A DNA stretch of 64,000 nucleotides from Polyangium mundeleinium (lineage in GTDB: Bacteria; Myxococcota_A; Polyangia; Polyangiales; Polyangiaceae): the NCBI RefSeq assembly GCF_028369105.1, contig NZ_JAQNDO010000001.1, positions 558,001 to 622,000 of the forward strand. Direction: 5' to 3'. Positions 8,901-37,480 of this stretch are shown here, piece by piece (positions within the stretch are counted from its first letter, which is position 1; every line of letters starts with the position of its first letter). Below the pieces are notes generated by a model. The model worked only from the letters and a program-made list of their open reading frames with translations. It had not been told where the DNA came from and did not search any database. The translations under genes and the position numbers were made by a program.

Positions 8901-9749
8901 CCGCACGTAGGCCGCTTCCGGTATCCGCTCGTCGTCGCGCGTTTGCCCGAGGGCGAGCTGTGGATCGACGCGGACGTGGACGGTCCGCCCTTGCCTCCAG
9001 GCCGCGTGAGCCCGGAGCTTCGGGGCAGGAACGCGATCCTGCCCGACGGCAGTCTCGTGACGGTGCAGGGCGACGCGAGCGAGAAGGGCGACGAGGTGGA
9101 GATCCGGCTCGCGCTCGACGCGTCGGGCGTCGCGCGCGGCACGTTCTCGATCGCGCTGCGCGGGCGCGAGGCGCAGTCGCTCGCGGACTCGCTCGACATG
9201 GTCGTCGGCACGGATCGGCGCGAGATGCTCCGCAACGTGGTGCTCACGTGGGTGCCCTGGGCCGACGTCGAGGACGTGGAGCTCGGATCGAGCGAGGGCT
9301 CGTGGGAGGTCTCGGTGCGCGCGAAGATCGCGATCTTCGGCTACTCGCAGCCCGAGACCCGCGACGGCAAGACGTGGCTGCTGCCGGGCCTCGAACCGAT
9401 GCACCTCGCGCGTGGTTTCTCCAGCACGCTCGCTTCGTTCTACGCGTCCCGCGCGGGCCGCGAGAGCGCGCTGACCATCGACAGGCCGCTCCAGTACCGC
9501 GTCCGCCGTCGCATCGAGCTGCCCAAGGGCGCGACGGTCGCGCGCGCGCCGTCGTCGGTGAAGGTCGCGCACGAGGGGTTCTCCGCGTCGCGCGAAGGCT
9601 CGTACAAGGAGGGCGTGATCGAGGAGGCGTTCTTGCTCGATCTGCCGACGGGCACGGTGTCGGCGGGCGAGTACGACAGCTTCGTCGAGCGGGTGCGCGC
9701 CGTGGACGACGGCTTCATGGCCGGCACGCGCGTGAAGGTGTCACCCTGA
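5907..9749 (+). CDS. Large lipoprotein with TPR-like region and DUF3857/transglutaminase-like region
   Basis: This is an envelope lipoprotein of 1280 residues. The start at 5907 is chosen because GGAGG sits 6 bases upstream; a GTG at 5880 in the same frame is the alternative. A signal sequence ends in a lipobox (ISAALLAAC). The first 600 residues are helical, TPR-like solenoid. From about residue 680 the sequence resembles DUF3857 (VLRHVERYAVDAGG ... DSYGPSIEANAAQRLLRRRI, then a long beta-rich stretch). This is followed by a transglutaminase-core-like segment (ALVVWRALRELGVDARLAI, then ELWIDADVDG). The catalytic Cys usually found just before this helix is absent, so enzymatic activity is unlikely. 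It probably acts as a scaffold in the periplasm. It is followed directly by murB, which suggests co-transcription. Confidence 0.75.
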   Translation: MRHLTLGGSARASRATPPNPQHAARLGLISAALLAACANPTPVAPQQPPSAKLAESFVAAIDAEAADPLASAKYLDAIDRAVANGRDPEALATVVASLDALAFREVEALGLPGEQAVAYRSRDGMPAVVERLRAAWTAAGERLAQGDDPGVLPVMRGKLATALHELAMYVGQEQAAMVWGERRGCAREAALVAPLDFAALRGLAEPSQVVPTGAFGATYPGARPFFAEVTPYVVRADACALDVNATFSLPGVRAVVVDIENPREQTVFVSLASRSAAVVDVAGTRVIRRGFEAGDGAVTRLGRVSLPVGRARVVVRVGQMSDGDQIELDVWGDDGLPLPLRAPKAGDVATVSRASGAAPIEITASRAGDATLALTTAALLGLGEARVAEHLLEERGLPETSSPRVFLLAARATAKADDLPDSKQIERLRAYTEKTLAAWPKAWEALVTRAALTERRRVVEGLADALGELGVRPPASGQAVDKPTAEKAVTDPMTLTYVAAAAKRGQMLDVAEEAYRALETAVPGSPLLARVDTYLHGRVGADAVKAACAGGTGRAYLPCMHAHKQRGDARAALEELGRVRRLRSAPDAFRDAEVGLHVLAGDLDAAIAAYDATPPARRRLLDALGFAAGRNRSDLVRPRLERDQRVAVDTPYAIPILRRILALEPDQARELEAEGARLVSADRATNVMPGAGTAVLRHVERYAVDAGGVLRYLVYDLRRVSGTTDVAEGADSYGPSIEANAAQRLLRRRIHKRDGRVVEPDQVAAEQSHSDLSELEKGDYVEQILEGFVLPDAGGQIVVDGPDLLPARTGVREAEIELRRPASLALGLWSHPLLGKPQVRTDKGDEVRVWRIENKEPRRIEDGVPRLEQAVTISFGTQTWANLGRLLDDHVRALEDKDPYVARFAREAAGSVTAPSRALVERVVTAVGKRVKVPGGGELSDVSAMYGTGPQQTTARTVLELGQGSRALVVWRALRELGVDARLAIAETEPFSGAADFPPHVGRFRYPLVVARLPEGELWIDADVDGPPLPPGRVSPELRGRNAILPDGSLVTVQGDASEKGDEVEIRLALDASGVARGTFSIALRGREAQSLADSLDMVVGTDRREMLRNVVLTWVPWADVEDVELGSSEGSWEVSVRAKIAIFGYSQPETRDGKTWLLPGLEPMHLARGFSSTLASFYASRAGRESALTIDRPLQYRVRRRIELPKGATVARAPSSVKVAHEGFSASREGSYKEGVIEEAFLLDLPTGTVSAGEYDSFVERVRAVDDGFMAGTRVKVSP

Positions 9750-9802
9750 GCCTGCGTACGTTGCGTCCCCCGCCGCCCGAGCCTCCGCGCGCGCCGGAGG
9801 GC

Positions 9803-10906
9803 ATGCTCTTTGATGTGCCGCTCGCGCCGCGGACCACGCTCGGCGTCGGCGGCCCGGCTGCACGTTACGTCGAGGCGCGCACCGAGGAGGCCGTGCACGA
9901 GACGCTCGCCTGGGCGCGCAACCAGCGCCTCGACGTCACCGTGCTCGGCGGCGGTTCGAACGTGCTCGTCGCGGATCGCGGCGTCGACGGCCTCGTGCTC
10001 CGGGTCGCGGTCTCCGGCGTGAATCATGCGATGGAGGGGGATCGGGTCACGCTGACCGCGGGCGCGGGCGAGCCGTGGGATGCGCTCGTCGCGATGACCG
10101 TGGAGCAAGGCTGGGCCGGGCTCGAGTGCCTCTCGGGCATCCCGGGTGACGTGGGCGCGGCGCCGATCCAGAACATCGGCGCGTACGGGCAAGAAGCGGG
10201 CGACGTGATCACGTTCGTCTACGGCATCGATCGGCGCAGCGGCGCGACCGTGGGCATCGATCGGCTCGGCTGCCGCTTCGGCTACCGCGACAGCGTCTTC
10301 AAGCGCCGGGCGAGCGGCAGGTTCGTGATCGTCGGCGTGACGTTTTCCCTTCAGCGCGGCGGCTCGGCGGCCGTGCGGTACGCGGAGCTCGATCGGCACC
10401 TGCGCGACACGGGCGCCGGCCCTTCGCCTTCGCTCGCCGAGGTGCGCAAGGCCGTGCTGGAGCTACGCCGCCGCAAGTCGATGCTCGTCGAGGCGGGGGA
10501 CGAGAACGCGCGCAGCGCCGGTTCGTTTTTCGTGAACCCGACGCTCGACGAGGCGGCCTTCGCCGAGGCCCGCGCGCGCATCGTGGCCGCGAACGTGCTC
10601 GAACCCGGCGAGAACCTCCCGCAGTTCGTCGCGGGCCCGGGTCGCGTAAAAATCCCGGCGGCGTGGCTCATCGAGCGCGCCGGGTTCAAGAAGGGAACGG
10701 GCGACGGTCCGGTGGGTCTGTCCACGCGCCACGCACTCGCGCTCGTCAACCGCGGCGGCGCGACGGCCGAGGACATCCTTCGCTTCGCGCGCCGGATTCG
10801 TGATGCGGTGCTCGCGCGTTTCGGCGTGCGGCTCGTGCCCGAGCCCGTGATGCTCGGCTTCCGGCCGGAAGAGGTCGAGGACCTCGTGGGGCACCCAACG
10901 ACCTGA
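9803..10906 (+). CDS. murB: UDP-N-acetylmuramate dehydrogenase (UDP-N-acetylenolpyruvoylglucosamine reductase)
   Basis: MurB reduces UDP-GlcNAc-enolpyruvate to UDP-MurNAc with NADPH, via FAD, in the cytosolic phase of peptidoglycan synthesis. The FAD-binding signatures TTLGVGGPA, VLGGGSNVL and GLECLSGIPGDVGAAPIQNIGAYG are present. The GYRDSVFK loop marks the type I enzyme. The catalytic Ser is in SAGSFFVNP and the conserved Glu in LVPEPVMLG near the C-terminus. The start is uncertain: ATG 9803 gives MLFDVPLAPRTTLGVGG, the usual MurB N-terminus, but its GGAGG is only 2 bases away; a TTG at 9761 is the alternative. The length of about 367 residues is normal for type I. It sits directly downstream of the DUF3857-type lipoprotein gene. 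Confidence 0.93.
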   Translation: MLFDVPLAPRTTLGVGGPAARYVEARTEEAVHETLAWARNQRLDVTVLGGGSNVLVADRGVDGLVLRVAVSGVNHAMEGDRVTLTAGAGEPWDALVAMTVEQGWAGLECLSGIPGDVGAAPIQNIGAYGQEAGDVITFVYGIDRRSGATVGIDRLGCRFGYRDSVFKRRASGRFVIVGVTFSLQRGGSAAVRYAELDRHLRDTGAGPSPSLAEVRKAVLELRRRKSMLVEAGDENARSAGSFFVNPTLDEAAFAEARARIVAANVLEPGENLPQFVAGPGRVKIPAAWLIERAGFKKGTGDGPVGLSTRHALALVNRGGATAEDILRFARRIRDAVLARFGVRLVPEPVMLGFRPEEVEDLVGHPTT

Positions 10907-21498: not shown

Positions 21499-23250
<1,752 letters not shown>

Positions 23251-23273
23251 GCGGGCCCTGGGCCCCGGGCCGC
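23251..23273 (+). terminator. GC-rich hairpin after the mutase gene
   Basis: GCGGGCCC (23251-23258) pairs with GGGCCGC (23267-23273) with one bulged base, right after the TGA. No T-tract follows. It separates the mutase gene from the promoter of the small peptide gene. Confidence 0.4.
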
Positions 23274-23306
23274 GAACCCGAACGATCCCACCAGAGAAGA
23301 AAATGC

Positions 23307-23336
23307 TTGCCCCGAGCGAGCATTCCTACGTAAACT
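23307..23336 (+). promoter_or_regulatory. Putative promoter of the candidate borosin precursor gene
   Basis: TTGCCC (23307-23312), 18 bases, then TAAACT (23331-23336), in an unusually A-rich patch for this genome (AGAAGAAAATGC just upstream). It predicts a leader of about 80 bases before the ATG at 23422. Confidence 0.5.
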
Positions 23337-23421
23337 AAGACCACTGCCGGCCTGTCGTCCCACTCGAATTGGGCGATGGAGTCATCGTCGATTCAGAGCC
23401 GCACGACATTCGGAGCCTCCC

Positions 23422-23652
23422 ATGGAAGCTTCTCTTGGTCGGTTTTTGGCCGATATGGCCCTCGATCCGTCCCATTTGGCCGCGTTCCTCCAGGATCCCG
23501 AGGCGTTGATGAAGCGGGTGAACCTGGGTGAGGAAGAGCGCCTCGTCGTTCAGAGCGCGAACCCCGCGTTGATGTCCGACTGGCTTTGCACGGAGCGCGG
23601 AGGACCCGCCTCGGCCCCGTGGAACTGCCCGGTTCTCGCCGTCTTGTTTTGA
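23422..23652 (+). CDS. Candidate split-borosin precursor peptide (LigA-like/borosin-binding-domain leader)
   Basis: This is a 76-residue protein with a good ribosome site (CGGAG ending 6 bases before the ATG). Residues 1-55 form a compact helical domain of the LigA-like type (LGRFLADMALDPSHLAAF, then DPEALMKRVNLGEEERLVV). In the Shewanella split borosin SonA this kind of domain, the borosin-binding domain, is used by the methyltransferase to capture its substrate. Residues 57-76 form a flexible tail ending in the hydrophobic NCPVLAVLF, which I take as the candidate core to be N-methylated. The dioxygenase subunit suggested by the LigA resemblance is unlikely because no catalytic LigB partner is present. 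The matching methyltransferase gene starts 3.1 kb downstream. The gene has its own promoter. Confidence 0.7.
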   Translation: MEASLGRFLADMALDPSHLAAFLQDPEALMKRVNLGEEERLVVQSANPALMSDWLCTERGGPASAPWNCPVLAVLF

Positions 23653-23663
23653 GCCACGCCGGC

Positions 23664-23694
23664 GAGGGCCCCTCGTTCGTCACGGAGGGCTCTC
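23664..23694 (+). terminator. Possible hairpin after the precursor gene
   Basis: GAGGGCCC (23664-23671) can pair with GGGCTCTC (23687-23694) around a 15-base loop, 12 bases after the stop. No T-tract follows. It could limit read-through into the kinase gene. Confidence 0.3.
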
Positions 23695-23800
23695 GGGCGT
23701 CTCGCCGCATTCCGTACGCCCGCAGGTGAGCTTGCGTGCGCTGCTGCCTGTCGAAAATTTGCCGCTCAGCATGTTCTTAGCGAACCCGGCCGCACCGGGT

Positions 23801-23806
23801 TAGCAT
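23801..23806 (+). promoter_or_regulatory. -10-like TAGCAT box, 6 bases before a kinase start
   Basis: TAGCAT is followed by 6 bases and the ATG at 23813; TTAGCG 18 bases upstream is a weak -35. It predicts a leaderless kinase message separate from the precursor transcript. Confidence 0.45.
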
Positions 23807-23812
23807 GACGCC

Positions 23813-26752
23813 ATGCGCCTGCGCCCGGGCGATACCTTCGACCGGTACGTGATCGAAGCGCTCCTCGGCGAGGGGGGCATGGGCGAGGTGTATCAAGCGC
23901 GCGACGTCCGCCTGCAGCGCCGTGTCGCGCTGAAGGTCCTGCGCAAGGACGCCGCGGCCGATCCCGAGGGCTGGCAACGCGCCCTCGTCCGCATGCTCCG
24001 CGAGGCCCGGGCCGCCGCGGCGCTGAACCACCCGAACACCGTCTCCATCTACGACATCGGCGAGGCAGAGAATCTGCCCTACCTCGCGATGGAGCTCATC
24101 GAGGGCCTCTCGCTCCGGCGCTTGATCGGCGGCGGCGCCTCGATCTCCACGCGGCTCGGGTGGCTGCTCGACGTGGCCCGCGCCCTCTCCGCCGCCCACC
24201 GCGCGGGCCTCGTCCACCGCGACGTGAAGCCGGAAAACGTGATGCTGCGCGAGGACGGCGCCATCAAGGTCCTCGACTTCGGCATCGCCCGGCGCGTGCG
24301 CCTCGACGCCGACGAGGCCGCCTCCACCCAGCGCGGCACGGAGATCGGGAACAAGATCGGGTCGCTACGCAGCGCCGACACGGTCACGAGCGAAGGCGTC
24401 ATGGTCGGCACCCCGGCGTATATGTCGCCCGAGCAGCTCACGGGAGATCCGGTCGACGCGCGGACGGATCAGTTCGGTTGGGGCGTGCTCGCGTACGAGC
24501 TCATCACGGGCCGCGTGCCCTTCGGCGCGAACCTCGAAGGCATCAAGCTGCTCTCGTCCATCTTGCAGGACGAGCCCCCGTCGCTCGACGGCCTCGTGCC
24601 GTCGGTGATCGAGCGTGTCCTCAAGCGCACGGTCGCGAAGCGCAAAGTCGACCGCTTCTCCTCGATGGATCTCGTGGTCGACGCGCTCGCGCCTTATGTC
24701 GCGTCCGAGCACGCGGGCGGCCTGCACGACGTCGTGATCCCCGGGCCCGACTCCGCGCAGCCGGAGACCCTGGCGCCCGAGGACGTGGCGCCGAACGCGC
24801 GCGTGCTGCCGCTCGGGCCGAGGATGTCCAGGGTCGCGATCGCGACGAAGTCGGAGTCCGCGCCGCCACCCGCGCGCGCCACGCCTGCCACGCACACGAT
24901 GCGCTCGCCGGACCTCGACAAGGCCGGGCGCCTCACGCCGGCGCCGCCCGCGCCCGTCGTGCGCGTGGAGATGTCCAGCCATGCGGGGAAGACCACGACG
25001 GCGGCGATGACCACACTCGAATCGCCGGCCCTGGCGACGGCGGCTCCGCCGAAGCTCGGGCGGCGGTGGCCGCGCTGGTCGATGTTGGGCCTCGGCGCGA
25101 TATGGGTCGTGGCCGCGGCGGTGTGGGGGACCTTCTGGTATCGGAAGAAAGTTGCGCCCCCGCCCGTGGCCACGATGGCGCCCCTGCCTGCGCCCACGCC
25201 GATCACGGAGCTGCCCATTTCGGGATCGTCGAACCCTGCAGCGATCGCCGCGTTTCGGGAGGGTTTGCAGGCCTTGCGGGACGCGTCCTGGGAGTTCGCG
25301 CGGGGGGCGTTCGAGCGCGCGACGAAGGCCGACAATGGGTTTGGCGCGGCGTATCTGCGCCTCGCGCTCATCGAGCGGTTCCTCACCGACACGGCGAGCA
25401 CGCGGCTCGCCTTCCAGCGCGCCGTGCAGCTCCGGAGCACGATGACGGAGCGGGATCAGGTCCTCCTCGACGCGCTCGAACCCCTCCTCCAGCGAGATCC
25501 TCCGGACGTGAACGAGACGGTCAAGCGGATCGAGGACGCCTCGAACCGATATCCGCGGGACGCCGAGCTCGTCAATTTGCTGGTGTCGCTGCAGATGCGC
25601 GCCGAGCCCTCGCGGCTCCTCACGCTGACCGACCGATGCCTCGAGCTCGATCCGAAATACGCGGATTGCTGGCATGCACGGTCGTTTTCGCTCTTCCGGA
25701 TCGGAAAGGAGCGGGAGGCGCTCTCGGCGCTCGATCGTTGCGTCGAGCTCGTGCCGGCGGCGGTGGATTGCCTGCGCGAGCGGGTCCTCGCGCGGAAGTA
25801 TCTCGGGCAGTGCGACATGCTCGAAGCGGACGTGCGGCAATGGATCACCAAGGATCCGAGCTCGGCGATCGCCCACAACGAGCTCGCCGGGGCCCTGCAG
25901 GCCGGCGGGCAGCAAGGCCCCGCCGTGAAGGCGGCCGTCGAGCAGGCGGCGAGGAAATTCCGGGATCAGGGGCGCATCGAGGAGGCCGGCCGGCTGCGCA
26001 TTCATCATGCGGTCATCTCCGGCGACTTCGAGGCCGCCGAGCGCATCGCGCGCGAGCTCGAACAAGACATCGCCGACGAATCCCTGGAGGAGAAGCACAT
26101 CGTCCCGGCCCTCGCGCTCGTCCAGCTTTATGGGGAGCTCGGCCAGGACAAACGCGCGGCCGAGGTGGCCGATCGATTTCTCGCGCAACGCTCGGCGTGG
26201 ACGCAGCCGGTCGTCCGGTCGATCTGGTGGGATCCGACGGTCGCGTTCCTCGAAGCGAAGCGGCGGGGGGGCGGGTTCGACGCCGTGCAATTCACCCTGG
26301 CGCGCGCCTCGTGGGAGAGCAGCTTCGCGAGCAGCACGAACGACATGAAGCAGGCCTCGATCTGGTTCGTCGGGTACGCCATGCCTGCACGAACGGAGGC
26401 CCAGGCGCGGGAGGCGCTCGCGGCGCAGCCCGCGCTCCAGCCGGCGACCTTTTATGCGCAAATGGCGCCGCGGGTGGAGATGTGGCTCGGCGGCGTCCAT
26501 TACCTGGCCGGCGACGTCGAGCGCGCCTTGCCGCACCTCGAAGTGGCCGCCCGCTCCTGCACGGCCCTCGACGAGCCCATTCTCCACACCGTCGCGACGT
26601 ATCGCCTCGGCGTCGCGCGCGAGCAGCGAAACGACAAACAAGGCGCGTGCTCCGCGTATCGAGCCGTGCTCGATCGCTGGGGGCGCGCGAAGGGCTCGGT
26701 CACGGCCCAGGGCGCCGTGGCCCGGGCAAAAGCGTTGAAATGCGTCGAATGA
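23813..26752 (+). CDS. Transmembrane Ser/Thr protein kinase with periplasmic TPR tail (paralogue 1)
   Basis: This is a 979-residue Hanks-type kinase. The kinase domain (about 10-295) has the glycine loop LLGEGGMGEVY, the ATP Lys in VALKVLRK, catalytic HRDVKPENV, DFGIAR and YMSPEQ. The segment between DFG and SPE is unusually long. A Pro/Ala-rich linker leads to one membrane segment near residues 423-443 (SMLGLGAIWVVAAAVWGTFWY). The C-terminal 530 residues are TPR-like helices, predicted to be periplasmic. They carry the Cys pattern RC-x9-DC ... RC-x9-DC ... GQC shared with the next three kinases, and end with GACSAYRAVLDRWG...ALKC. It is likely a receptor kinase. It lies between the candidate borosin precursor and the borosin methyltransferase, 40 bases upstream of the latter, so those two are probably co-transcribed. 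Confidence 0.9.
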   Translation: MRLRPGDTFDRYVIEALLGEGGMGEVYQARDVRLQRRVALKVLRKDAAADPEGWQRALVRMLREARAAAALNHPNTVSIYDIGEAENLPYLAMELIEGLSLRRLIGGGASISTRLGWLLDVARALSAAHRAGLVHRDVKPENVMLREDGAIKVLDFGIARRVRLDADEAASTQRGTEIGNKIGSLRSADTVTSEGVMVGTPAYMSPEQLTGDPVDARTDQFGWGVLAYELITGRVPFGANLEGIKLLSSILQDEPPSLDGLVPSVIERVLKRTVAKRKVDRFSSMDLVVDALAPYVASEHAGGLHDVVIPGPDSAQPETLAPEDVAPNARVLPLGPRMSRVAIATKSESAPPPARATPATHTMRSPDLDKAGRLTPAPPAPVVRVEMSSHAGKTTTAAMTTLESPALATAAPPKLGRRWPRWSMLGLGAIWVVAAAVWGTFWYRKKVAPPPVATMAPLPAPTPITELPISGSSNPAAIAAFREGLQALRDASWEFARGAFERATKADNGFGAAYLRLALIERFLTDTASTRLAFQRAVQLRSTMTERDQVLLDALEPLLQRDPPDVNETVKRIEDASNRYPRDAELVNLLVSLQMRAEPSRLLTLTDRCLELDPKYADCWHARSFSLFRIGKEREALSALDRCVELVPAAVDCLRERVLARKYLGQCDMLEADVRQWITKDPSSAIAHNELAGALQAGGQQGPAVKAAVEQAARKFRDQGRIEEAGRLRIHHAVISGDFEAAERIARELEQDIADESLEEKHIVPALALVQLYGELGQDKRAAEVADRFLAQRSAWTQPVVRSIWWDPTVAFLEAKRRGGGFDAVQFTLARASWESSFASSTNDMKQASIWFVGYAMPARTEAQAREALAAQPALQPATFYAQMAPRVEMWLGGVHYLAGDVERALPHLEVAARSCTALDEPILHTVATYRLGVAREQRNDKQGACSAYRAVLDRWGRAKGSVTAQGAVARAKALKCVE

Positions 26753-26792
26753 GGCACGAGCCCGGCGCATGCCACGGGAGGCATCAGGCCGC

Positions 26793-27590
26793 ATGATCAA
26801 AGAAAAAGGTACGCTCGTCGTCGTGGGCACCGGCATCCGGACGGTCGGTCAGCTCACCGGCGATACCATTGCAAGGCTCAAGACCTCCACGAAAGTCTTT
26901 TACATCATCGCCGATCTCGTCGGCGAGCAGGTCATCAAGCAGATTCAGCCCGCCGCGGAGTCGCTCGGCCGGTTTTACCGGCTCGGCCGCAATCGCCGGG
27001 AGGCGTACGACGCCATGGTCGAGCGGATCATGAGCGCCGTCCGCGACGGCCATCGCACGTGCTGCGCGGCGTACGGCCACCCGGGCGTCTTCGCCTTCCC
27101 CACGCACGAGGCCATTCGCCGGGCGCGCGCCGAGGGCTTCGAGGCCACGATGTTCCCGGCCGTCTCCGCCGAGGATTGCCTCTTCGCCGATCTCGGCGTC
27201 GACCCCGCGAACCCCGGCTGCAACAGCCACGAGGCCACGCGGTTCGTCCTGTACAAGAAGTCCGTCGACCCCACGTCGGGGTTGATCCTCTGGCAGGTCG
27301 GCATGTTCGGCGACGCGACGTACCGGCCCGAGGGCAACCGCGGCCAATGGATTCACGTGCTCGTCGATCGCCTGCTCCAGCATTACCCCGAGGACCACGA
27401 GGTCACCCTCTACGAGGCCGCGGTCTTCATCAATTGCCCCCCGCGCATCGAGCGAATCGCGCTCGGCAAACTCGCCGATGCCGAACTCACGCCCTCGACC
27501 ACGCTTTACGTGCCCCCGGCCCGGCGCGACGTGCTCGACGAGGAGACGTGCGCCGCGCTCGGCATCGAACGCGCGGCCCTCGCGCGCTGA
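26793..27590 (+). CDS. Borosin-type peptide backbone alpha-N-methyltransferase (SonM-like, split)
   Basis: This is a 265-residue SAM-dependent methyltransferase of the tetrapyrrole (precorrin) methylase fold. The sequence follows bacterial split-borosin enzymes such as SonM: GTLVVVGTGIRTVGQ at the N-terminus, CAAYGHPGVFAFPTHEAIRR, then VSAEDCLFADLGVDPANPG. The catalytic set Tyr62-x5-Arg68-x3-Tyr72-x21-Tyr94 has exactly the spacing of Tyr66, Arg72, Tyr76 and Tyr98 in fungal OphMA (recalled). The C-terminus stops after the methylase fold with no fused core, so the substrate must be a separate peptide, most plausibly the 76-residue protein at 23422. The start at 26793 is preferred over the in-frame ATG 26769 because GGGAGG lies between them and the family begins here. 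Expected product: N-methylated backbone amides in the precursor tail. Confidence 0.92.
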   Translation: MIKEKGTLVVVGTGIRTVGQLTGDTIARLKTSTKVFYIIADLVGEQVIKQIQPAAESLGRFYRLGRNRREAYDAMVERIMSAVRDGHRTCCAAYGHPGVFAFPTHEAIRRARAEGFEATMFPAVSAEDCLFADLGVDPANPGCNSHEATRFVLYKKSVDPTSGLILWQVGMFGDATYRPEGNRGQWIHVLVDRLLQHYPEDHEVTLYEAAVFINCPPRIERIALGKLADAELTPSTTLYVPPARRDVLDEETCAALGIERAALAR

Positions 27591-27641: not shown

Positions 27642-30374
27642 ATGCCCCTTTCCCCTGGAGAAAGGTTCGATCGGTACGTCGTCGAAGCGCTCCTCGGCGA
27701 AGGCGGCATGGGCGAGGTGTATCGCGTGCAGGATACGCGCCTCGGCCGCAGCGTCGCGCTCAAGGTGCTTCGGCGCGACATCCAAGGCGGGAGCGAGAGC
27801 TGGGCCCGACAGGTGCGCCGCATGCTCCGCGAGGCCCGGATCGCCGCGGCTTTGAATGATCCCGGCATCGTCGCGGTCTACGACGTCGGCGAGCACGAGG
27901 GCGCGCCTTTCATCGCGATGGAGCTCGTGCAAGGCAAGCTCCTGCGCGACCTCGTGCACGCGGATGCGCCGCTCGGCGAAAAGATCACCCTGCTCTCCGC
28001 GGTCGCGCAGGTCCTCTCCGTCGCGCATCGCGCCGGGCTCGTGCACCGCGACGTCAAGCCCGAGAACGTGATGATCCGCGAAGACGGCGCCATCAAGGTC
28101 CTCGATTTCGGCATCGCGCGGCGCACCGACGAGGAGATCGCGGCGTACGACGGGCCCGACGATTTCGCCACGCGCACCGGGGATGGCTCGTTCGTCGGCA
28201 CCCCCGCGTACATGGCGCCCGAGCAAGTGAAGGGGGATCCCATCGACGCGCGGGTCGATCAATTCGCCTGGGGCGTCACCGCGTACGAGCTCCTCGCGGG
28301 CAAACTGCCGTTCCGTTTGGATCGCGGGCCCGTGAGCCTCATCGCCTCGATCCTGAGCGACGAGCCGCCGCCGATGAACGACGTGCCTCCCGAGATCGAG
28401 GCCGTCGTTTTTCGCGCGCTCGCCAAGGAGCCCGCCGATCGCCACGCCTCGATGGACGACATCGTCACGGCGCTCGCGCCCTTCGCCACGCCGATCACCA
28501 CGCTCCTGCGGAGAAGGGACGGGCCTGCGAACGCCGCGCGTCCCTCCGTGCGAGAGCCGCCTCCTCCGAAGGCGAGCACCCCCTCCCGCAGCACGACGAC
28601 GCGCTCGCCCGCGCGCCGCGCCGCCACGAATCGCACGCCGGTGACGACCCCACGCGCGCCCGCGCGCTCGCGCCGCTTTCTCGGCCTCGCCGCCATCGTC
28701 ACGCTGGGCGTCGCGGCCGCGGGGTTCGTCTTCGCCCGCAAGGCCAGGACCGCGCCGCCGCCCGTGCTCGCGCGGACCTCCCTCACGCCCGTCCCGACGA
28801 TCGTCACCGCGCTGCCTTTGCCGAAGTTCGCCAATGAAGAGGCGCGCGCGGCGTATCGCGAGGGGCTCCAGGGGTTGCGCGACGGGGCCTGGAGGACGGC
28901 CTATGCCGCCTTCGCGCGCGCCACGCAGGCCGATCCGGGGCTCACGTCGGCCTGGCTGCGCATGGCCATCCTCATTTGGGACGCGGATGTCACGACGGGG
29001 CGCGAGCATTTTCGTCGCGCGGTCCTGGGGCGCGCGACGCTCGACGCCCATGACCAGGCCCTCCTCGACGCCCACGAGCCCCTGATTCAGGGCACGCCGA
29101 GCGATATCCCCGAGACCGCCCGGCGCCTCGCGCTCGCCTCCGCTCGATTCCCCGGCAACGCCGAGCTCGCGAACCTCGCTTCGATGTACGAGCTCGGCTA
29201 TCTGCCGCCTTCCGACGTCCTGCCGCGCATCGATCGTTGCCTGGAGCTCGATCCCCTTTATGGCGATTGCTTGCAGGGCCGGGCGCGCCTGCTCATCCGT
29301 CGCACCGGGCACATCGAGGAGGGCCTCGCGGCGCTCGAGCGCTGTATCGAGGCGACCCCGGCCGCCTCCGATTGCCTCATGGATCGAGGCGACACAAACC
29401 TCGCGCTCGGCCGGTGTTCGGTCGTCGAGGCCGGGGCGCGTGAATGGATCGCCAAGGTCAGCCCCGCGCCGGCCGCGCACATGCAGCTCGCGGGCGCGCT
29501 TTACGCGCGCGGCGCGCCCGCGGCTGCCGTGAAGACCGCCGTCGAGACCGCGGCGGCGCAATTCCGCGCGCAGGGGCTCGAAGCCGAGGCCAGCAAGCAG
29601 CTCATTCTGCACGAGATCGCCACGGGCAGGTTCGAGCAAGCCGAGCGCATGCTCCGCGACCATCAGCGCCTCGTCGCCAACGATCCTGCCGTGAGCGCGC
29701 ACGGCTGGGCGGCCAACATGCTCATCCAGGTGCTCCAGGAAATGGGCCGCGACGCCGACGCGGGCCGCGAGGCGCAGAGCTACATCGCGCGCCGTGGCGC
29801 GTTGATCGCCGATCCCCTGAGCGGGGACTTTGCCGTACGTCTCTTGCGTGCCGAGCTCGCCGCGGGGCTCGTCACGCGGGACGTGTACGAGGCCGAGCGC
29901 GCGGCCTGGGCCAAGAGCCATCCGGATCCCACGCTTCGGATAGGCGTCTGGATCTCCGGGTACGCGCTCGTCGCCCGCGACGAAGGCGAAGCCAAGGCCG
30001 CGCTCGCGGTGATGCCGACCGAGGCCCTCAGCAAGGAGCGGAGCTTCTCCCTTCACCTCGGCCTCATCCTCGACAGCGCGCTCGGCCAAACGTATTGGCT
30101 CGCGGGCAACCCCGCCGCCGCGCTTCCGCACCTCACGGCGGCGACCGTCTCGTGCAGCGGCCTCATCGAGCCCATGCTGCCGACGCAGCACATGCGCCAC
30201 ACGAAGAGCCTCCACCAGCTCGGCCTCGTCCGCCAGGCCCTCGGCGATCGCTCGGGCGCGTGTGACGCGTTTGGTCGTGTCCTCGCGCGCTGGGGTGGGG
30301 CGCGCGCCTCGCGCACGGCGGCCGAGGCCCGCGCGCATGTAAAAGCGCTTGGTTGCGAGGCAAAGGCCGGCTGA
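27642..30374 (+). CDS. Transmembrane Ser/Thr protein kinase with periplasmic TPR tail (paralogue 2)
   Basis: This 910-residue paralogue of the kinase at 23813 begins immediately after the borosin methyltransferase gene. The kinase domain (about 8-285) is intact: LLGEGGMGEVY, VALKVLRR, HRDVKPENV, DFGIAR and YMAPEQ. A basic, Pro/Thr-rich linker precedes one membrane segment at about 347-365 (FLGLAAIVTLGVAAAGFVF). The periplasmic tail has TPR-like helices with the shared pattern DRCLELD...GDC, ERCIEATP...SDC and GRC, ending in GACDAFGRVLARWGGA...ALGC. It has its own -10 box. The next kinase gene starts 3 bases after its stop, so the two are translationally linked. Substrate and ligand are unknown. 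Confidence 0.9.
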   Translation: MPLSPGERFDRYVVEALLGEGGMGEVYRVQDTRLGRSVALKVLRRDIQGGSESWARQVRRMLREARIAAALNDPGIVAVYDVGEHEGAPFIAMELVQGKLLRDLVHADAPLGEKITLLSAVAQVLSVAHRAGLVHRDVKPENVMIREDGAIKVLDFGIARRTDEEIAAYDGPDDFATRTGDGSFVGTPAYMAPEQVKGDPIDARVDQFAWGVTAYELLAGKLPFRLDRGPVSLIASILSDEPPPMNDVPPEIEAVVFRALAKEPADRHASMDDIVTALAPFATPITTLLRRRDGPANAARPSVREPPPPKASTPSRSTTTRSPARRAATNRTPVTTPRAPARSRRFLGLAAIVTLGVAAAGFVFARKARTAPPPVLARTSLTPVPTIVTALPLPKFANEEARAAYREGLQGLRDGAWRTAYAAFARATQADPGLTSAWLRMAILIWDADVTTGREHFRRAVLGRATLDAHDQALLDAHEPLIQGTPSDIPETARRLALASARFPGNAELANLASMYELGYLPPSDVLPRIDRCLELDPLYGDCLQGRARLLIRRTGHIEEGLAALERCIEATPAASDCLMDRGDTNLALGRCSVVEAGAREWIAKVSPAPAAHMQLAGALYARGAPAAAVKTAVETAAAQFRAQGLEAEASKQLILHEIATGRFEQAERMLRDHQRLVANDPAVSAHGWAANMLIQVLQEMGRDADAGREAQSYIARRGALIADPLSGDFAVRLLRAELAAGLVTRDVYEAERAAWAKSHPDPTLRIGVWISGYALVARDEGEAKAALAVMPTEALSKERSFSLHLGLILDSALGQTYWLAGNPAAALPHLTAATVSCSGLIEPMLPTQHMRHTKSLHQLGLVRQALGDRSGACDAFGRVLARWGGARASRTAAEARAHVKALGCEAKAG

Positions 30375-30377
30375 CGC

Positions 30378-32975
30378 ATGGCGGAGTCCACGCGATTCGC
30401 CAGCGGCGAGGTGCTCGGCCGGTACGTCGTCGAATCCCTCCTCGGCGAGGGCGGCATGGGCGAAGTGTATCGCGCCCTCGACACGCGCCTCGGTCGCAGG
30501 GTCGCGCTGAAGGTCCTGCGCAAGGACACCGAGCTCTCCGAAGACGCGTGGGCCCACGAGTCCTCGCGCATGCTCCGCGAGGCGCGCGCGGCCGCGGCGC
30601 TCTCGCATGCCGGCATCGTGGCGATCTACGACGTCGGCGAGCTCGACGGCACGGCGTTCATCGCCATGGAGATCGCCGAGGGCGAACCCTTGCGCGCGCT
30701 CGTCGGAAAGGACGCGCCCGACGCCTGGAAGATCCAGATCCTCCACGACGTCGCGCGCGCGCTCGACGCGGCTCACCAGGCCGGCGTCGTGCACCGCGAC
30801 GTCAAACCCGAGAACATCGTCGTGAGCAAGGCGGGCGCCGTGAAGGTGCTCGACTTCGGCATCGCGCGCGGGCTCGATCGCGAGACCGATCCCGGCGCGC
30901 GTACGCTCGAGGTCGAGCCCGCCGAGTCCATGTTCCAGGGCACCCCGGCGTATACGGCGCCCGAGCAGCTCACGGGCGAGGCCCTCGACGCGCGCGCCGA
31001 TCAGTTTGGTTTTGGCGTCGTCGCCCATGAGCTTTTCGAGGGCGAGCTGCCGTTCCGCGTGGACAAGGGCCCTGCGGCCCTCATCAGCTCGATCCTCGCC
31101 GACGAGCCCAAGCCGATGACCCGCGCGCCCGAGGGCGTCCGTGACATCGTCCGGCGCGCGCTCGCGAAAGACCCCGCCGATCGATTCCCCTCGATGGCCG
31201 CGCTCGCCGACGAGCTCGCGCTCCTCTCGATCGAACCCGAGCCCGCCCCGCTCCCCGCGCCGCCCTCGCCTGCCGCTCCCCGTGTTTCCGCGGCCCGCGT
31301 GTTCGCCCTCGTCGCCGTCCTCGCCGCGCTCGCCGCTGTCGCGTGGATCGTGTTTCACCGGGAAAAACCTGCCGATCCTGCGCCGGCCTTGCTTTTTGCG
31401 TCGGCCGTGCTGCCGGTCAAGGTCGCGATCACCGATCTCCCGCTCCCGAGCACGGACAAACCCGAGGCGCTCGTCGCGTATCGCGAGGGGGTCCAGGCCG
31501 TGCGTGACGCCTCCTGGTCGACGGCGCGCCTCGCCTTCGATCGCGCCCGCAAGGCTGATCCCTCGCTCGCGCTCGCGCATCTCCGTTACGCGATGGTCGC
31601 GATCGACTCGGATGACCTCGACCCCTCGCGCGAGGCTTACCGGGTCGCTTTCCTTTTGCGGTCCTCGCTCGGCGAGCGTGATCACGCGATGCTCGACGCG
31701 CTCGAACCCTTTTTGCAGCGCGATCCGCCCGACCTCACCGAGATGCGCCGTCGCATCGGGAACCTATCGGCCCGGTATCCGGGCGACGCCGAGCTCGTGT
31801 ACTGGCAGTTTTTCCCGTTCGTCCACCACACCCCGGCCGAGGTCCTCGCGCTCACCGAGCGTTGCCTCGTGCTCGACGATCGATACGCCGATTGCTGGCA
31901 AACCCAGGCCCGCGCGCTCCTCGCCCTCAGTCGGCCCGAGGACGCGAGGCGCGCGCTCGATCGGTGCGTCGAGATCGCTCCCACCGCGGGCGACTGCATG
32001 TTCGACCGGGCCACCGTGGAGATCCTGTCGGGCCGCTGCGTGGGCCTCGAAGAGGTCGCGCGGAACTGGATCGCGCGCGAGCCCGATCTCGGCCGGGCGC
32101 ATGGGTATCTCGCGTCCGCGCTGTATGGACAGGGCCGCGAGAACGCCGCCGTCCGTGCTGTCGTTGATGTGGCGACGCAAAAGCTCCGCCTCTCGGGTTT
32201 CCAGGTCGAGGCCCTCACGCTCGATTTCGGGTTCGCCGCGGGCACGGGTGATTTCGAGTCCGCGCTCCTGGCCGCGCAGCAGACGAGCAACGTTGGCGAC
32301 ACCGATCACGGGGCCAGCCCCACGGCCAAGCATATCTTTCTTTTGCTCGAGCTCGGGCGCACCGCGGACGCAGGCCGCGTCGCCTCGGACTTCCTCGCGC
32401 GCCAGACGGCCTCGCTCCGCTCCACCGTCGAGGGATGCCTCGTCGACCCCGACCCGTTGTTTTACGCTGTCGCCCATCGCGCGGGCCTGCTCTCGACGGA
32501 CGACCGCGCTGCGCATCGCGACGCCTGGCTCCACCGCTGCGCCGAGCAGGGCGAAGCCGCCTTCGCCTGGTACGCCGGGTATGCCCTGCCTGCAATCACG
32601 CCCGATGACGCGCGCGAGGCGCTCGCCGTGTTGCCGCGTTTCGCCACGCGTCCCGAGGACGTCCCTTTTTATCGTGGCCTTTATGCTGCCGCGCTTCGTG
32701 GAAAAGTCCGGTTCCTCGCGGGCGAGATGGACGCGGCCCTGCCGGACCTCGTCCAGGCTTCGAGCCATTGCGCCATGTTGATGGATCCGGTCAGCTATCT
32801 GCAGAACCAGGTTCGCATCGGTGTCGCGCGTGAAACGCGGGGCGAAAAGGACCTCGCGTGCGCGGCGTATCAGAGCGTCCTCTCGCGGTGGGGCGCGGCG
32901 AAGGACTCGATCTCGGCGCGCGACGCGGCTCGTCGGGCCAAGGCGCTCGGCTGCGCGCCCCGGCGTAGACCCTGA
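30378..32975 (+). CDS. Transmembrane Ser/Thr protein kinase with periplasmic TPR tail (paralogue 3)
   Basis: This is an 865-residue kinase, the shortest of the four paralogues. The catalytic domain (about 12-280) has LLGEGGMGEVY, VALKVLRK, HRDVKPENI and DFGIAR; the activation segment ends in YTAPEQ rather than YMAPEQ. The linker is short. The membrane segment lies at about 311-328 (VFALVAVLAALAAVAWIVF). The tail keeps the Cys pattern ERCLVLDDRYADC, DRCVEIAPTAGDC and GRC, and the closing LACAAYQSVLSRWGAAK...ALGC. It starts 3 bases after the stop of paralogue 2 and so has no promoter of its own visible. Confidence 0.9.
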   Translation: MAESTRFASGEVLGRYVVESLLGEGGMGEVYRALDTRLGRRVALKVLRKDTELSEDAWAHESSRMLREARAAAALSHAGIVAIYDVGELDGTAFIAMEIAEGEPLRALVGKDAPDAWKIQILHDVARALDAAHQAGVVHRDVKPENIVVSKAGAVKVLDFGIARGLDRETDPGARTLEVEPAESMFQGTPAYTAPEQLTGEALDARADQFGFGVVAHELFEGELPFRVDKGPAALISSILADEPKPMTRAPEGVRDIVRRALAKDPADRFPSMAALADELALLSIEPEPAPLPAPPSPAAPRVSAARVFALVAVLAALAAVAWIVFHREKPADPAPALLFASAVLPVKVAITDLPLPSTDKPEALVAYREGVQAVRDASWSTARLAFDRARKADPSLALAHLRYAMVAIDSDDLDPSREAYRVAFLLRSSLGERDHAMLDALEPFLQRDPPDLTEMRRRIGNLSARYPGDAELVYWQFFPFVHHTPAEVLALTERCLVLDDRYADCWQTQARALLALSRPEDARRALDRCVEIAPTAGDCMFDRATVEILSGRCVGLEEVARNWIAREPDLGRAHGYLASALYGQGRENAAVRAVVDVATQKLRLSGFQVEALTLDFGFAAGTGDFESALLAAQQTSNVGDTDHGASPTAKHIFLLLELGRTADAGRVASDFLARQTASLRSTVEGCLVDPDPLFYAVAHRAGLLSTDDRAAHRDAWLHRCAEQGEAAFAWYAGYALPAITPDDAREALAVLPRFATRPEDVPFYRGLYAAALRGKVRFLAGEMDAALPDLVQASSHCAMLMDPVSYLQNQVRIGVARETRGEKDLACAAYQSVLSRWGAAKDSISARDAARRAKALGCAPRRRP

Positions 32976-33031: not shown

Positions 33032-35758
33032 ATGCGTTTCTCGCCGGGGGAGTCGTTCGACCGCTACGTCATCGAGTCGCTCTTGGGCGAGGGTGGCATG
33101 GGCGAGGTGTATCGCGCCGAGGACACCCGCCTCCGCCGCAGAATCGCGCTCAAGGTGCTGCGCAAGGGCGACGAAGCCGACAGCGAGACCTGGGGCCGCG
33201 CGGTCGCGCGTATGCTCCGTGAGGCGCGCGCGGTCGCGGCGCTCTCCCATCCGGGCATCGTCGCCATCTACGACGTCGGCGAGCATGACGGCGCGCCGTT
33301 CATCGCGATGGAGCTCGTCGAGGGGCGCCCTTTGCGGGCCCTCGTGGGCGGGGACGAACCCCTCGGCACGCGCTTGCGCCTCCTCCTGGAGATCGCGCGG
33401 GCCCTTTCGGCTGCGCATCAGGCGGGCCTCGTGCACCGCGATGTCAAACCCGAGAACGTCGTCGTTCGCGGCGACGGCGCCGTGAAGGTCCTCGATTTCG
33501 GGATCGCCCGCAAGCTCGCGCGGACGAGCGCCGATCCCCTCGGACCCACGGCCGACGGCGCGCTCGCCACGATGACGGCCGAGGGCGCGCTCGTCGGCAC
33601 CCCGGCGTACATGGCGCCCGAACAGCTCCGCGGCGAGGAGATCGACGCGCGGGCCGATCAGTTCGCGTGGGGCGTCCTCGCCTACGAATTGCTCGCCGGC
33701 AAGATCCCGTTTCGCTCCGACAAAGGCGCGGTCAGCCTCATGGCGTCGATCCTGAGCGACGAACCGCCCCCGATCACGACCGTGCCCGACGGCGTCTGGC
33801 AGATCCTCGCGCGCGCCCTCGCGAAGGAGCCCGAGGCGCGGTTCGCCTCGATGGACGAGGTCGCGCAGAACCTCCACGTGTTCGTCACCGCGGAGGACAC
33901 GCGGACCATCACGAGCCGCCGCAATGTCGTCCTCGTCTCCTCCACCGGCGACACCCGCGCGCCGGTCGTTGCCTCGCTCCCGCCCCCTTCGGCGTCGCGC
34001 AAGCCCTGGATGTTCGTGGCGCCTGTCGTCGCCCTCCTCGCCGCGGGCGGCGCCGTGGTTGCCCTCCGCAAAGCCCCGGCCGACGTGAATGCTTCGGCGC
34101 CGTCCTCGGCGGTCGTGCCGGCCGGCCCCGCGCCCACGGCCGTCACCGATTTGCCCCTTCCGCCCACGGAAAACGCGGAAGCGCGGCTTGCGTTTCGCGA
34201 GGGGCTCCAGGCGATCCGGGACGCCACCTGGGACACGGCGATTGCCGCGTTCGAGCGGGCGCGCAAGGCCGATCCGGGCATGGCCGCGGCGCACCTCCGG
34301 TTTGCGGCGCTCGAGGCCTCGTTCGACATCAACGCGGCCCGCGAGGCGTTTCGCAAGGCGATCGGCCTCCGCAGCTCGCTCACCGAGCGCGACCAGGCGT
34401 TCCTCGACGCGCTCGAGCCGATGCTCCAGAACGACCCGAGCGATTGCGCGACGTCGGCCCGCAGGTTCGAGGCCATGGTCGCGAAATGGCCCGGCGACGC
34501 GGAGATCGTCTTCTGGTATGCGCGCCAGCTCCTCGAATCCACGAAGGCCTCCCAATCGGAGAAGGTCCTCGCGCTCGCGCGGCGCTGCGTCGAGCTCGAC
34601 CCGCAATACGCCGATTGCTGGCAGACGCAGCAATACGCGCTTTTGCCCCTCCGCCGGAGCGCGGAGGCGCTCGTCGCGCTCGAAAAATGCGTCGAGGTCT
34701 CGGCCGGCGCGGTCGATTGCCTCAATGACAAGATCAAGATCGTCTCGTCGCTCGGCCAGTGTGATGTCGCGGCCGAGACGGCGCGGCGGTGGATGGCCAA
34801 GGAGCCTTCCTCGCCGAAGCCCCACTTGATGCTCGGCGGCGCTCTGTATGGCGCAGGCGAGCCCGAGGCGGCCGTCCGCGCGGCGCTCGACCAGGCGGAG
34901 CGGCGCTTCCGGGCGACGGGTCATCCCTGGCAAGCCGAGGATCTCGTGGCCCGCCGCGCGATGGCGTTCGGCGAGTTCACGACCGGGGCACGCGCCGCGG
35001 ATTCGTTGATGTCCCTGACCCCGCCCATGCCGCAGGATGAGATCGCCGTGTATCACCTGCGGACGTTCGCGCGCTTGGAGCTCGGGGACATCGAGGGAGC
35101 GGCCCAGGTCGCGGACGAGTTCCTCGCGAAGAGCGCGCTCCGGACGGGGCAGTTCATCGGCGGCCACATCCTCGACCCCACCGTGTTCATGCATTCGCTC
35201 CGGCTCCGCGCCGGCAAGGAATCGCGCGCGGAATACGAGGCGGCGCGGTCCGCGTGGCTCGCGAAGCAGAATGTCTCGACGCCCGGGGGACGGCGGGTGG
35301 CCTGGGACGCGGCGTATGCCTGGCCGGCGTATTCGTCCGAGCTCGCGCAGGAGGCCCTCGCGAAGGAGGAAGAGTACATGCGGCTCCCGTCCGGCGAGCT
35401 CGACACGAGCGAGGCGGTATGGACGGGCTCGCTCGGCCATATGCGCCTCCTCGTCGGCAAGGAGATCGAAGCGCTGCCCTACCTCGAGAAGGCCGCGCAG
35501 GTCTGCCCCAACCCCTGGCAGTCGAGGTGGTACGTCCACCAGCAGGCGCGCCTCGGCATCGCGCGCGAGGCGAAGGGCGACAAACCCGGCGCTTGCAGCG
35601 CGTATCGCGCCGTCCTTTCCCGGTGGAGCAATCCGAAAGAATCGGTCACGGCGCGGGACGTGGAGAAGCGGGCGAAGGGCCTCGGCTGCGGTTTTCTCGC
35701 GGACGGGGGGCTCGCAGGGCCCCGTTCGCCGCGGGGTTCGAATCCGAACGCTGGCTGA
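33032..35758 (+). CDS. Transmembrane Ser/Thr protein kinase with periplasmic TPR tail (paralogue 4)
   Basis: This is a 908-residue kinase. The kinase domain (about 8-290) has LLGEGGMGEVY, ALKVLRKG, HRDVKPENV, DFGIARK and YMAPEQ. A membrane segment lies at about 328-347 (PWMFVAPVVALLAAGGAVVAL). The TPR-like tail carries RRCVELDPQYADC, EKCVEVSAGAVDC and GQC, and ends GACSAYRAVLSRWSNPKES...GLGC plus a short extra tail. Among the four it has the longest C-terminal extension after the last conserved Cys. The GAF-PP2C phosphatase gene follows 87 bases later, which pairs kinase and phosphatase functions. Confidence 0.9.
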   Translation: MRFSPGESFDRYVIESLLGEGGMGEVYRAEDTRLRRRIALKVLRKGDEADSETWGRAVARMLREARAVAALSHPGIVAIYDVGEHDGAPFIAMELVEGRPLRALVGGDEPLGTRLRLLLEIARALSAAHQAGLVHRDVKPENVVVRGDGAVKVLDFGIARKLARTSADPLGPTADGALATMTAEGALVGTPAYMAPEQLRGEEIDARADQFAWGVLAYELLAGKIPFRSDKGAVSLMASILSDEPPPITTVPDGVWQILARALAKEPEARFASMDEVAQNLHVFVTAEDTRTITSRRNVVLVSSTGDTRAPVVASLPPPSASRKPWMFVAPVVALLAAGGAVVALRKAPADVNASAPSSAVVPAGPAPTAVTDLPLPPTENAEARLAFREGLQAIRDATWDTAIAAFERARKADPGMAAAHLRFAALEASFDINAAREAFRKAIGLRSSLTERDQAFLDALEPMLQNDPSDCATSARRFEAMVAKWPGDAEIVFWYARQLLESTKASQSEKVLALARRCVELDPQYADCWQTQQYALLPLRRSAEALVALEKCVEVSAGAVDCLNDKIKIVSSLGQCDVAAETARRWMAKEPSSPKPHLMLGGALYGAGEPEAAVRAALDQAERRFRATGHPWQAEDLVARRAMAFGEFTTGARAADSLMSLTPPMPQDEIAVYHLRTFARLELGDIEGAAQVADEFLAKSALRTGQFIGGHILDPTVFMHSLRLRAGKESRAEYEAARSAWLAKQNVSTPGGRRVAWDAAYAWPAYSSELAQEALAKEEEYMRLPSGELDTSEAVWTGSLGHMRLLVGKEIEALPYLEKAAQVCPNPWQSRWYVHQQARLGIAREAKGDKPGACSAYRAVLSRWSNPKESVTARDVEKRAKGLGCGFLADGGLAGPRSPRGSNPNAG

Positions 35759-35845: not shown

Positions 35846-37480
35846 ATGACCGCCACCCGAAGAGCCCCCGATGAGCCGAACGCCTCGGACCTCGAGCGCA
35901 TCCTCCGCGACGCCACGCGGCTCCAGCTCGACCTTGCCCGCGCCGCAAGCGTCCTGCGCGAGCGCGGCGGTGATCTCGCGCGGGATCTGCCGGGCGAGAT
36001 CGACGGCCTGATCACGCAGCTCTCCACCTTTCGCACGAGCCTCGATGCGGAGCGGCGCGAGCAGGAGGGCGCCATGTCGCGCGAGGCGCAGGCGGCGCTC
36101 TTCGAGGTCGGCAAGGCCATCACCTCCTCGCTCGACCTCAAGACCGTGCTGAACCAGTGCATGGACTCCGTGATCGAGTTGACGAAGGCCGAGCGTGGCT
36201 ACCTCGTCCTCGTCGACCAATACGGCAAGCTCGACGTCCAGGTCGCGCGGAACCTCGACCAGGACACCATTCGGAGCATGGAGTTTGCGTATTCGAGCTC
36301 CGTGGTCGAGGAGGTCTTGAAGAGCGAGCGCAGCGTCCTCACGAGCAATGCGCAGACGGACGAGCGATTCGCGCTCCAGCGCAGCGTGGCGATGTTCCGG
36401 CTCACGAGCATCATGGCCGCGCCCTTGCGCATCCGGGGCAAGGTGATCGGCGTCCTGTACGTGGACAACCGCGCCTTCACCGGGCAGTTCTCGCAAGCGA
36501 AGCTCGATTTGCTGGAGGCGTTCGCGGGGCAGGCCGCGATCGCGATCCACAATGCCAAGCTCTTCGGGCAGACCGACGAGGCGCTCAAGCAACGCCTCCT
36601 CGAGCTCGAAGGCCTTTACAAGGAGCTCGCCGTGGCCCGCGAGCGCGCCGAGAATGGCCTCGCGGCCGTCGAGCGCGAGATGCAGATCGGCCGCGTCCTT
36701 CAATCCGAGTTCCTCCCGCGCGAGCTGCCCTCCTTGCCCGGCTGGCAGATCGCCTCCCGGTTCTTGCCGGCGCGCCAGCTCTCGGGCGATTTCTACGACG
36801 TCTTTCAGCTCGCCTCCGGGGAGTTCGCCGTCGCGATCGCCGACGTCTGCGACAAGGGCGTCGGTGCCGCGCTCTTCATGTCCCTCGTCCGCGGCCTGCT
36901 CCGCGCTTTCGCGCTCCGGGCGGCCGATCGGACCGCGGTTCTCGCGGCCATCACCGAGACGAACGATTACCTCGCCGAGAACCACGGCCGCACGGCCATG
37001 TTCACGACCCTCTTTTTCGGGGTCCTCGACCCGGAGAGCGGCGAGCTCTCCTATGTCAATTGCGGGCACGACGCGCCGATCGTCCTCGGCGCGACCGGCG
37101 AGGAGATCCGCCTCGAATCGACGGGCCCCGCGCTCGGCGCCATCCGGGACGTCGAATTCGAGATGGGCCAGATCACGCTGCTCCCCGGCGATTCTCTCGT
37201 GGCCTTCACGGACGGCGTGAGCGACGCGCTCGACCCGTCCGAGCGCTCGTTCAGCGAGGAAAAACTCCTCTCGATCCTGCGCGGCGGCGCGCCTTCCGTC
37301 ACGACCATGCTCGGCGACGTCGTGGCCGCGCTTCGCCACCACATCGGGGGCGCCGCGCAGTTCGACGACATCACCTTGCTCGCGCTCCGCCGCAATCCGA
37401 CACGCCGCGACTTCCCCACGGGCCAGTACCGCGTGATCGAGCCGATTGTGCAGGCCACGGGAAAGCGCAACCGGCGCTGA
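35846..37480 (+). CDS. GAF-PP2C (SpoIIE/RsbU-type) Ser/Thr phosphatase
   Basis: This is a 544-residue cytosolic phosphatase. A helical N-terminus is followed by a GAF sensor domain (about 85-240: AKAERGYLVL-like core, then MAAPLRIRGKVIGVLYVDNR). A coiled-coil signalling helix lies at about 240-285. The C-terminal PP2C/SpoIIE domain (about 300-530) carries the metal-binding acidic residues in SGDFYD, IADVCDKGVGAALFM, FTDGVSDA and DDITLLALRR. RsbU-like enzymes usually dephosphorylate anti-sigma-factor antagonists. Here the position directly after four Ser/Thr kinases makes it a plausible opponent of those kinases; that is inferred. Confidence 0.9.
   Translation: MTATRRAPDEPNASDLERILRDATRLQLDLARAASVLRERGGDLARDLPGEIDGLITQLSTFRTSLDAERREQEGAMSREAQAALFEVGKAITSSLDLKTVLNQCMDSVIELTKAERGYLVLVDQYGKLDVQVARNLDQDTIRSMEFAYSSSVVEEVLKSERSVLTSNAQTDERFALQRSVAMFRLTSIMAAPLRIRGKVIGVLYVDNRAFTGQFSQAKLDLLEAFAGQAAIAIHNAKLFGQTDEALKQRLLELEGLYKELAVARERAENGLAAVEREMQIGRVLQSEFLPRELPSLPGWQIASRFLPARQLSGDFYDVFQLASGEFAVAIADVCDKGVGAALFMSLVRGLLRAFALRAADRTAVLAAITETNDYLAENHGRTAMFTTLFFGVLDPESGELSYVNCGHDAPIVLGATGEEIRLESTGPALGAIRDVEFEMGQITLLPGDSLVAFTDGVSDALDPSERSFSEEKLLSILRGGAPSVTTMLGDVVAALRHHIGGAAQFDDITLLALRRNPTRRDFPTGQYRVIEPIVQATGKRNRR

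Follow-up and report, generated by a model that had tools for sequence, protein, structure and literature searches.

A probable split borosin precursor encoded with a SonM-like methyltransferase and kinase genes in Polyangium mundeleinium

A short open reading frame in the 64,000-nucleotide stretch of the Polyangium mundeleinium genome (13.25 Mb in total) analysed here, hereafter the window, very probably encodes a borosin precursor of the split kind, like those of type IV, the type with which it was compared. An earlier note had proposed a borosin core in its tail; the reading as a borosin precursor is supported because a leader resembling that of SonA and an enzyme resembling SonM are encoded in the same putative operon (Table 1).

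Table 1. Features of the putative borosin locus (positions in the window)
Feature	Position	Strand	Remarks
Methylmalonyl-CoA mutase gene	21499-23250	+	upstream of precursor
Conserved upstream block	23284-23421	+	bounds approximate; from alignment of 6 upstream regions
Precursor open reading frame	23422-23652	+	ATG start, 76 aa
Leader, residues 1-55	23422-23586	+	predicted five-helix borosin binding domain
Residues 56-70, CTERGGPASAPWNCP	23587-23631	+	invariant part of tail, linker and putative core start
Residues 71-76, VLAVLF	23632-23649	+	variable, mostly hydrophobic end of tail
K1, Ser/Thr kinase	23813-26752	+	TPR domain at the C-terminus; single membrane helix predicted, borderline (Pfam Pkinase, TPR)
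Borosin-type alpha-N-methyltransferase	26769-27590	+	273 aa; TP_methylase; separate from precursor
K2, kinase of K1 family	27642-30374	+	
K3, kinase of K1 family	30378-32975	+	
K4, kinase of K1 family	33032-35758	+	
GAF/SpoIIE protein	35846-37480	+	directly after K4

The start codon of the precursor gene is preceded by a GGAG six nucleotides to its 5' side. The span given for the tail in the earlier note, 23590-23652, is exact with the stop codon counted in, since codon 57 begins at 23590 and the stop closes at 23652, and every landmark it listed is present: residues 57-76 read TERGGPASAPWNCPVLAVLF, with Gly60-Gly61, Pro66-Trp-Asn-Cys-Pro70, Val71 to Phe76 at the C-terminus, and cysteines at positions 56 and 69. 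Relatives with 82-97% identity occur in all five other Polyangium genomes, and no homologue was detected at E <= 0.01 in the 53 non-Polyangium genomes among the 59 searched. For the leader, six orthologues (the window and L041-L045) give a pN of 0.067 and a pS of 0.246 (pN/pS 0.27), these being Nei-Gojobori proportions without correction, pooled from 15 pairs that are not independent, with the GTG start of three orthologues scored by the script as a change in codon 1. Judged by these genus-wide relatives and by pN/pS, the reading frame is more than a chance one. PHROGs matched neither the precursor nor the enzyme, and NCBIfam gave nothing above its curated cut-off (best for the precursor, IniB_NTERM, E 5.5e-4; best for the enzyme, a YabN-type family, E 1.9e-12).

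The conserved block upstream of the gene is probably its promoter and 5' leader. A second conserved non-coding block lies before K1 (23740-23812); both blocks are conserved across six genomes, and GCCTGTCG occurs in each of them in the window. An RNA element within 23200-23900 was considered and rejected, the two Rfam matches being far under the gathering score and read as chance.

The AF2 model of the precursor (14 sequences in, mean pLDDT 75) places the helices of the leader at residues 5-14, 16-24, 26-32, 37-44 and 48-57. Searched alone against PDB sequences, the precursor had no useful match; a profile of 14 precursors reached SonA chains at E 2.5e-4 to 4.6e-4, with the fungal borosins ranking behind (E 0.3-0.6, a weak match to the OphMA/dbOphMA clasp). 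In structural comparisons with VIA-align, 52 residues of the leader model were aligned with SonA chain 7ltr_I (Z 7.5, rmsd 1.5), the best of 21 chains, of which 12 gave Z >= 2, at values that the tool warns may be common among helical bundles (Z below about 13). Foldseek matched the leader to the same chain with a probability of 0.99 (TM 0.81 on the target, E 0.49), its top matches being a DesB chain and SonA (probability 0.99, E 0.46-0.49) and none reaching E <= 0.001. The Z value alone is not decisive, and it is therefore sequence, fold and gene context that jointly carry the borosin claim.

The other sequence and structure matches of the leader are LigA (Pfam, E 7e-4, under Pfam's own cut-off) and DesB, dioxygenase domains with a similar helical fold. 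These matches, along with the occurrence of leader-like domains that have no enzyme nearby, would fit a LigA-like domain in an unrelated small protein, the methyltransferase then having another substrate. We regard this as highly improbable: precursor and methyltransferase occur together in all six Polyangium genomes and are directly adjacent in five further Polyangium pairs (at the paralogous loci L044, L045, L048 and L049). No dioxygenase was found among the neighbouring genes scanned, and the co-encoded enzyme is a methyltransferase. Leader-like N-termini followed by about 115 more residues were also seen at L050 (about 10128-10640, +), L051 (about 9348-9851, -) and L052 (about 8985-9488, -), and the stretches fetched for these loci gave no borosin methyltransferase match near them.

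The best solved relative of the enzyme is SonM (7ltc_A, E 8.1e-61, residues 14-266 aligned), and the closest solved enzymes after it are dbOphM and OphMA of the omphalotin type, whose methyltransferase domain is homologous (E 1e-54 to 7e-48). Nine of ten SonM positions are identical (Y58, R67, R68, Y71, Y93, F99, E146, W166 and Q167), the tenth, E173, being replaced by D. Y58, R67 and Y71, which matter for catalysis in SonM, and Y93, which matters for its cofactor (PMC8429565), correspond to Y70, R76, Y80 and Y102 here, so that the SonM catalytic residues are kept in the Polyangium enzyme. It is a separate SonM-family alpha-N-methyltransferase with no fused core, whereas enzyme and core form one protein in OphMA and dbOphMA. 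The enzyme is also separate in the type IV system SonM/SonA of Shewanella oneidensis, where SonM has 263 residues and SonA 71 (273 and 76 in the window) and the leader has five helices, as predicted here (PMC8429565). The SonA and SonM genes are adjacent; here, precursor and enzyme genes are about 3.1 kb apart, with the gene for the 979-residue K1 in between, all on one strand in a putative operon. Unlike that of SonA, the tail of the Polyangium precursor contains proline and cysteine, with an invariant PWNCP, and its methylation is predicted.

Beyond the leader, residues 59-76 have no predicted fold (pLDDT < 50 in the AF2 model), and the tail falls into two parts with different patterns of change. 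Among the six orthologues, 13 of 55 columns vary in the leader, none of 15 at residues 56-70 and five of six at residues 71-76. The middle part is identical in all six proteins despite synonymous differences between the genes (pN 0.000, pS 0.262), and the end changes faster than synonymous sites do (pN 0.373, pS 0.256), differing in both residue and length (VLAVLF, MLAMF, VLMMF, TLAMIF and MLIQ, mostly hydrophobic after the CP, with MLIQ the exception). The Fisher values for column variability (0.0024 and 0.031) are descriptive only, because the borders at 55/56 and 70/71 were picked after alignment, the genomes are related, and residues 71-76 were compared ungapped despite their different lengths. 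The tail variability that the earlier note proposed to look for is thus seen at residues 71-76, not at residues 56-70, and its argument against a core, a tail conserved across homologues, gets a divided answer, most of the tail being fixed and its end variable. Between distant paralogous loci the tails differ strongly from one another: those of the C and D loci fail to align with the tail of the window precursor, and those of the E loci appear, by eye, unrelated to it.

The residues methylated in SonA are Leu63 and Ile65 (PMC8429565). In the structural register, with residues 4-55 of the model on SonA 3-54, these two fall on Ser64 and Pro66. We infer a core that starts near residue 64 and runs to the C-terminus, made up of a fixed and a variable part. 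In the pathway we envisage, residues 1-55 would fold into the borosin binding domain and dock on the separate SAM-dependent methyltransferase, and the disordered tail would enter its active site. Backbone amides from about residue 64 to the C-terminus would then be alpha-N-methylated, presumably in N-to-C order. Prolines 62, 66 and 70 of the precursor carry no amide hydrogen, and positions 66 and 70 would be passed over. A protease, none being recognised in the operon, would release the product. That the last eight residues are the best methylation sites, as had been suggested, is possible.

A shorter product is a plausible though less likely alternative. It would be confined to the invariant residues up to position 70, with residues 71-76 expendable and either trimmed or left unmodified, as the absence of any amino-acid change at 56-70, the variability of what follows, the first sites near 64-66 set by the SonA register and the recurrence of PW[NS]CP in a second precursor family would all suggest. 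The residues past the CP are mostly hydrophobic, however, which expendable sequence need not be. As for the disulphide between Cys56 and Cys69 that had been suggested, both residues are invariant in the six orthologues, but the pair is not general across families, since in the second family position 56 is Arg, one of its three members having Cys54, and a further Cys stands six residues beyond the PWxCP Cys.

This second family consists of 170-residue proteins at L040 (15362-15874, -), L046 and L047, in which the motif reads SPWSCPYMLGCPT or SPWSCPYLLGCPT and a long Pro/Ser/Thr/Arg repeat comes after it. The two families are identical at 23 of 55 leader residues and six of 21 tail residues, all six of these lying in the stretch that ends in PWxCP. 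The PLSTRA-type Pro/Ser/Thr/Arg repeat tail that follows SPWSCPYML in the second family may be a region with several cores or, alternatively, a substrate for kinases.

Methyltransferases of this type were detected in eight of the 59 genomes searched and, across the taxonomic family, nine of 108 genomes have a match at E <= 1e-20, all six Polyangium genomes included; these six carry 16 methyltransferases at E <= 1e-10. The leader profile, run on the reading frames of the fetched stretches, detected a leader-like one for 18 of the 21 methyltransferases examined, only four of these 18 being independent because the other 14 are rows of the profile itself. Those four (L053-L056) have E values of 4e-7 to 5e-3; no such frame was found for two methyltransferases in L097 and one in L098. 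At L053 and L054 the peptide is encoded about 1.1 kb downstream of the enzyme. The precursor-like peptides at these two loci (L053:7843-8136, -, and L054:11390-11671, +) carry an acidic DPGDDPDPNPDP stretch near their end and lie near a more distantly related methyltransferase. A pattern scan of the genome contigs returned four loci, all from Polyangium, such patterns reaching close relatives only.

The genes from the precursor to K4 lie on a single strand with gaps of 160, 16, 51, 3 and 56 nucleotides. Compared with receptor-like Hanks Ser/Thr kinases, K1 has the kinase motifs GxGxxGxV, HRDxKxxN and DFG. Every kinase in the window has one leading hydrophobic stretch, that of K1 (residues 423-441) being borderline (KD 1.69, against 2.3-2.9 in K2-K4). 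Residues 443-979 of K1 give an all-helical model (pLDDT 92), and six cysteines of the TPR part are invariant in all 22 kinase rows. These cysteines and the hydrophobic stretch are hints of an extracytoplasmic sensor.

The order precursor, K1, methyltransferase occurs in nine of the 16 Polyangium methyltransferase loci, which belong to two paralogous families (six A and three B), and three C pairs are located among the cluster kinases. Such additional precursor-methyltransferase pairs were seen at L044:6752-7989 (one) and L045:4323-9449 (two), with none at that place in the window. Families A and B are sisters both in the enzyme tree (21 rows, midpoint root; 91/92, under the tool's star threshold) and in the kinase TPR tree (22 of 35 hits; K1A and KB, 100/99), which fits duplication as a unit. 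Among the 27 kinase hits of the genus with at least 40% identity (a line set once it had been seen that the next hits reach 35% at most), 24 have a borosin methyltransferase no more than 10 kb away. The remaining three, on contig C244 of G005, look like the other part of a K2 that is broken off where contig C255 ends.

The kinases may serve the borosin pathway. Another reading would place peptide and enzyme in the service of kinase signalling, with the modified peptide binding K1 as a ligand or being its substrate, rather than chiefly a metabolite for secretion; the position of K1 between precursor and enzyme, the matching A/B topologies and the clustering of kinase hits near methyltransferases would all agree with this. 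We nevertheless consider it unlikely. At E <= 1e-60, 23 of the 108 genomes have members of the kinase family, with one hit from outside Polyangium as high as 42%, and three genomes of genus g20 hold at least 12-13 copies each (13 candidates per genome scored) with no methyltransferase match detected. Such members without a borosin enzyme rule out a kinase family exclusive to borosin loci. Conversely, G036 has a methyltransferase and its kinase relatives elsewhere in the genome, and for four of the 16 Polyangium methyltransferases (D and E) the fetched stretch contains no close kinase, that of L053 showing only a 32% one. Generic TPR proteins make up the 50 Foldseek matches listed for the TPR part of K1; no quorum-sensing peptide receptor was seen among them, a negative that excludes nothing. 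A further, speculative idea is that precursor, kinase and methyltransferase are inherited together as one cassette in which the methylated peptide, a borosin acting as a signal, would be sensed or phosphorylated by its own transmembrane TPR kinase.

The split borosin favoured here would be a new member of its group, the kinase-linked gene order being its most unusual feature. As of 2021, no type IV borosin pathway had been linked to a final product, according to PMC8429565. The Polyangium family, with its invariant linker and variable six-residue end, offers a comparative set for telling residues required by the enzyme from those it tolerates, and the repeated order of precursor, kinase and methyltransferase is a handle on the role of the peptide for its producer. 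Judged by titles and the beginnings of abstracts, the literature matches listed included no Polyangium borosins and no borosin-linked kinases; an earlier report is possible, for instance in the papers of Cho et al. and Imani et al., which according to PMC11285071 defined borosin types V-X.

Neither protease nor exporter was recognised among the eight downstream genes scanned in the window, three of which have no Pfam match, and the ten proteins scanned near other loci (four at L040, two each at L048 and L049, plus one precursor-like peptide each at L053 and L054) include no shared protease or exporter. Among those ten are acetyltransferases, malic enzymes, a P450 and an M4 peptidase, the last encoded on the opposite strand. 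Farther on in the window, past the GAF/SpoIIE protein, a sigma-70 region 2 protein is encoded at 41161-41790.
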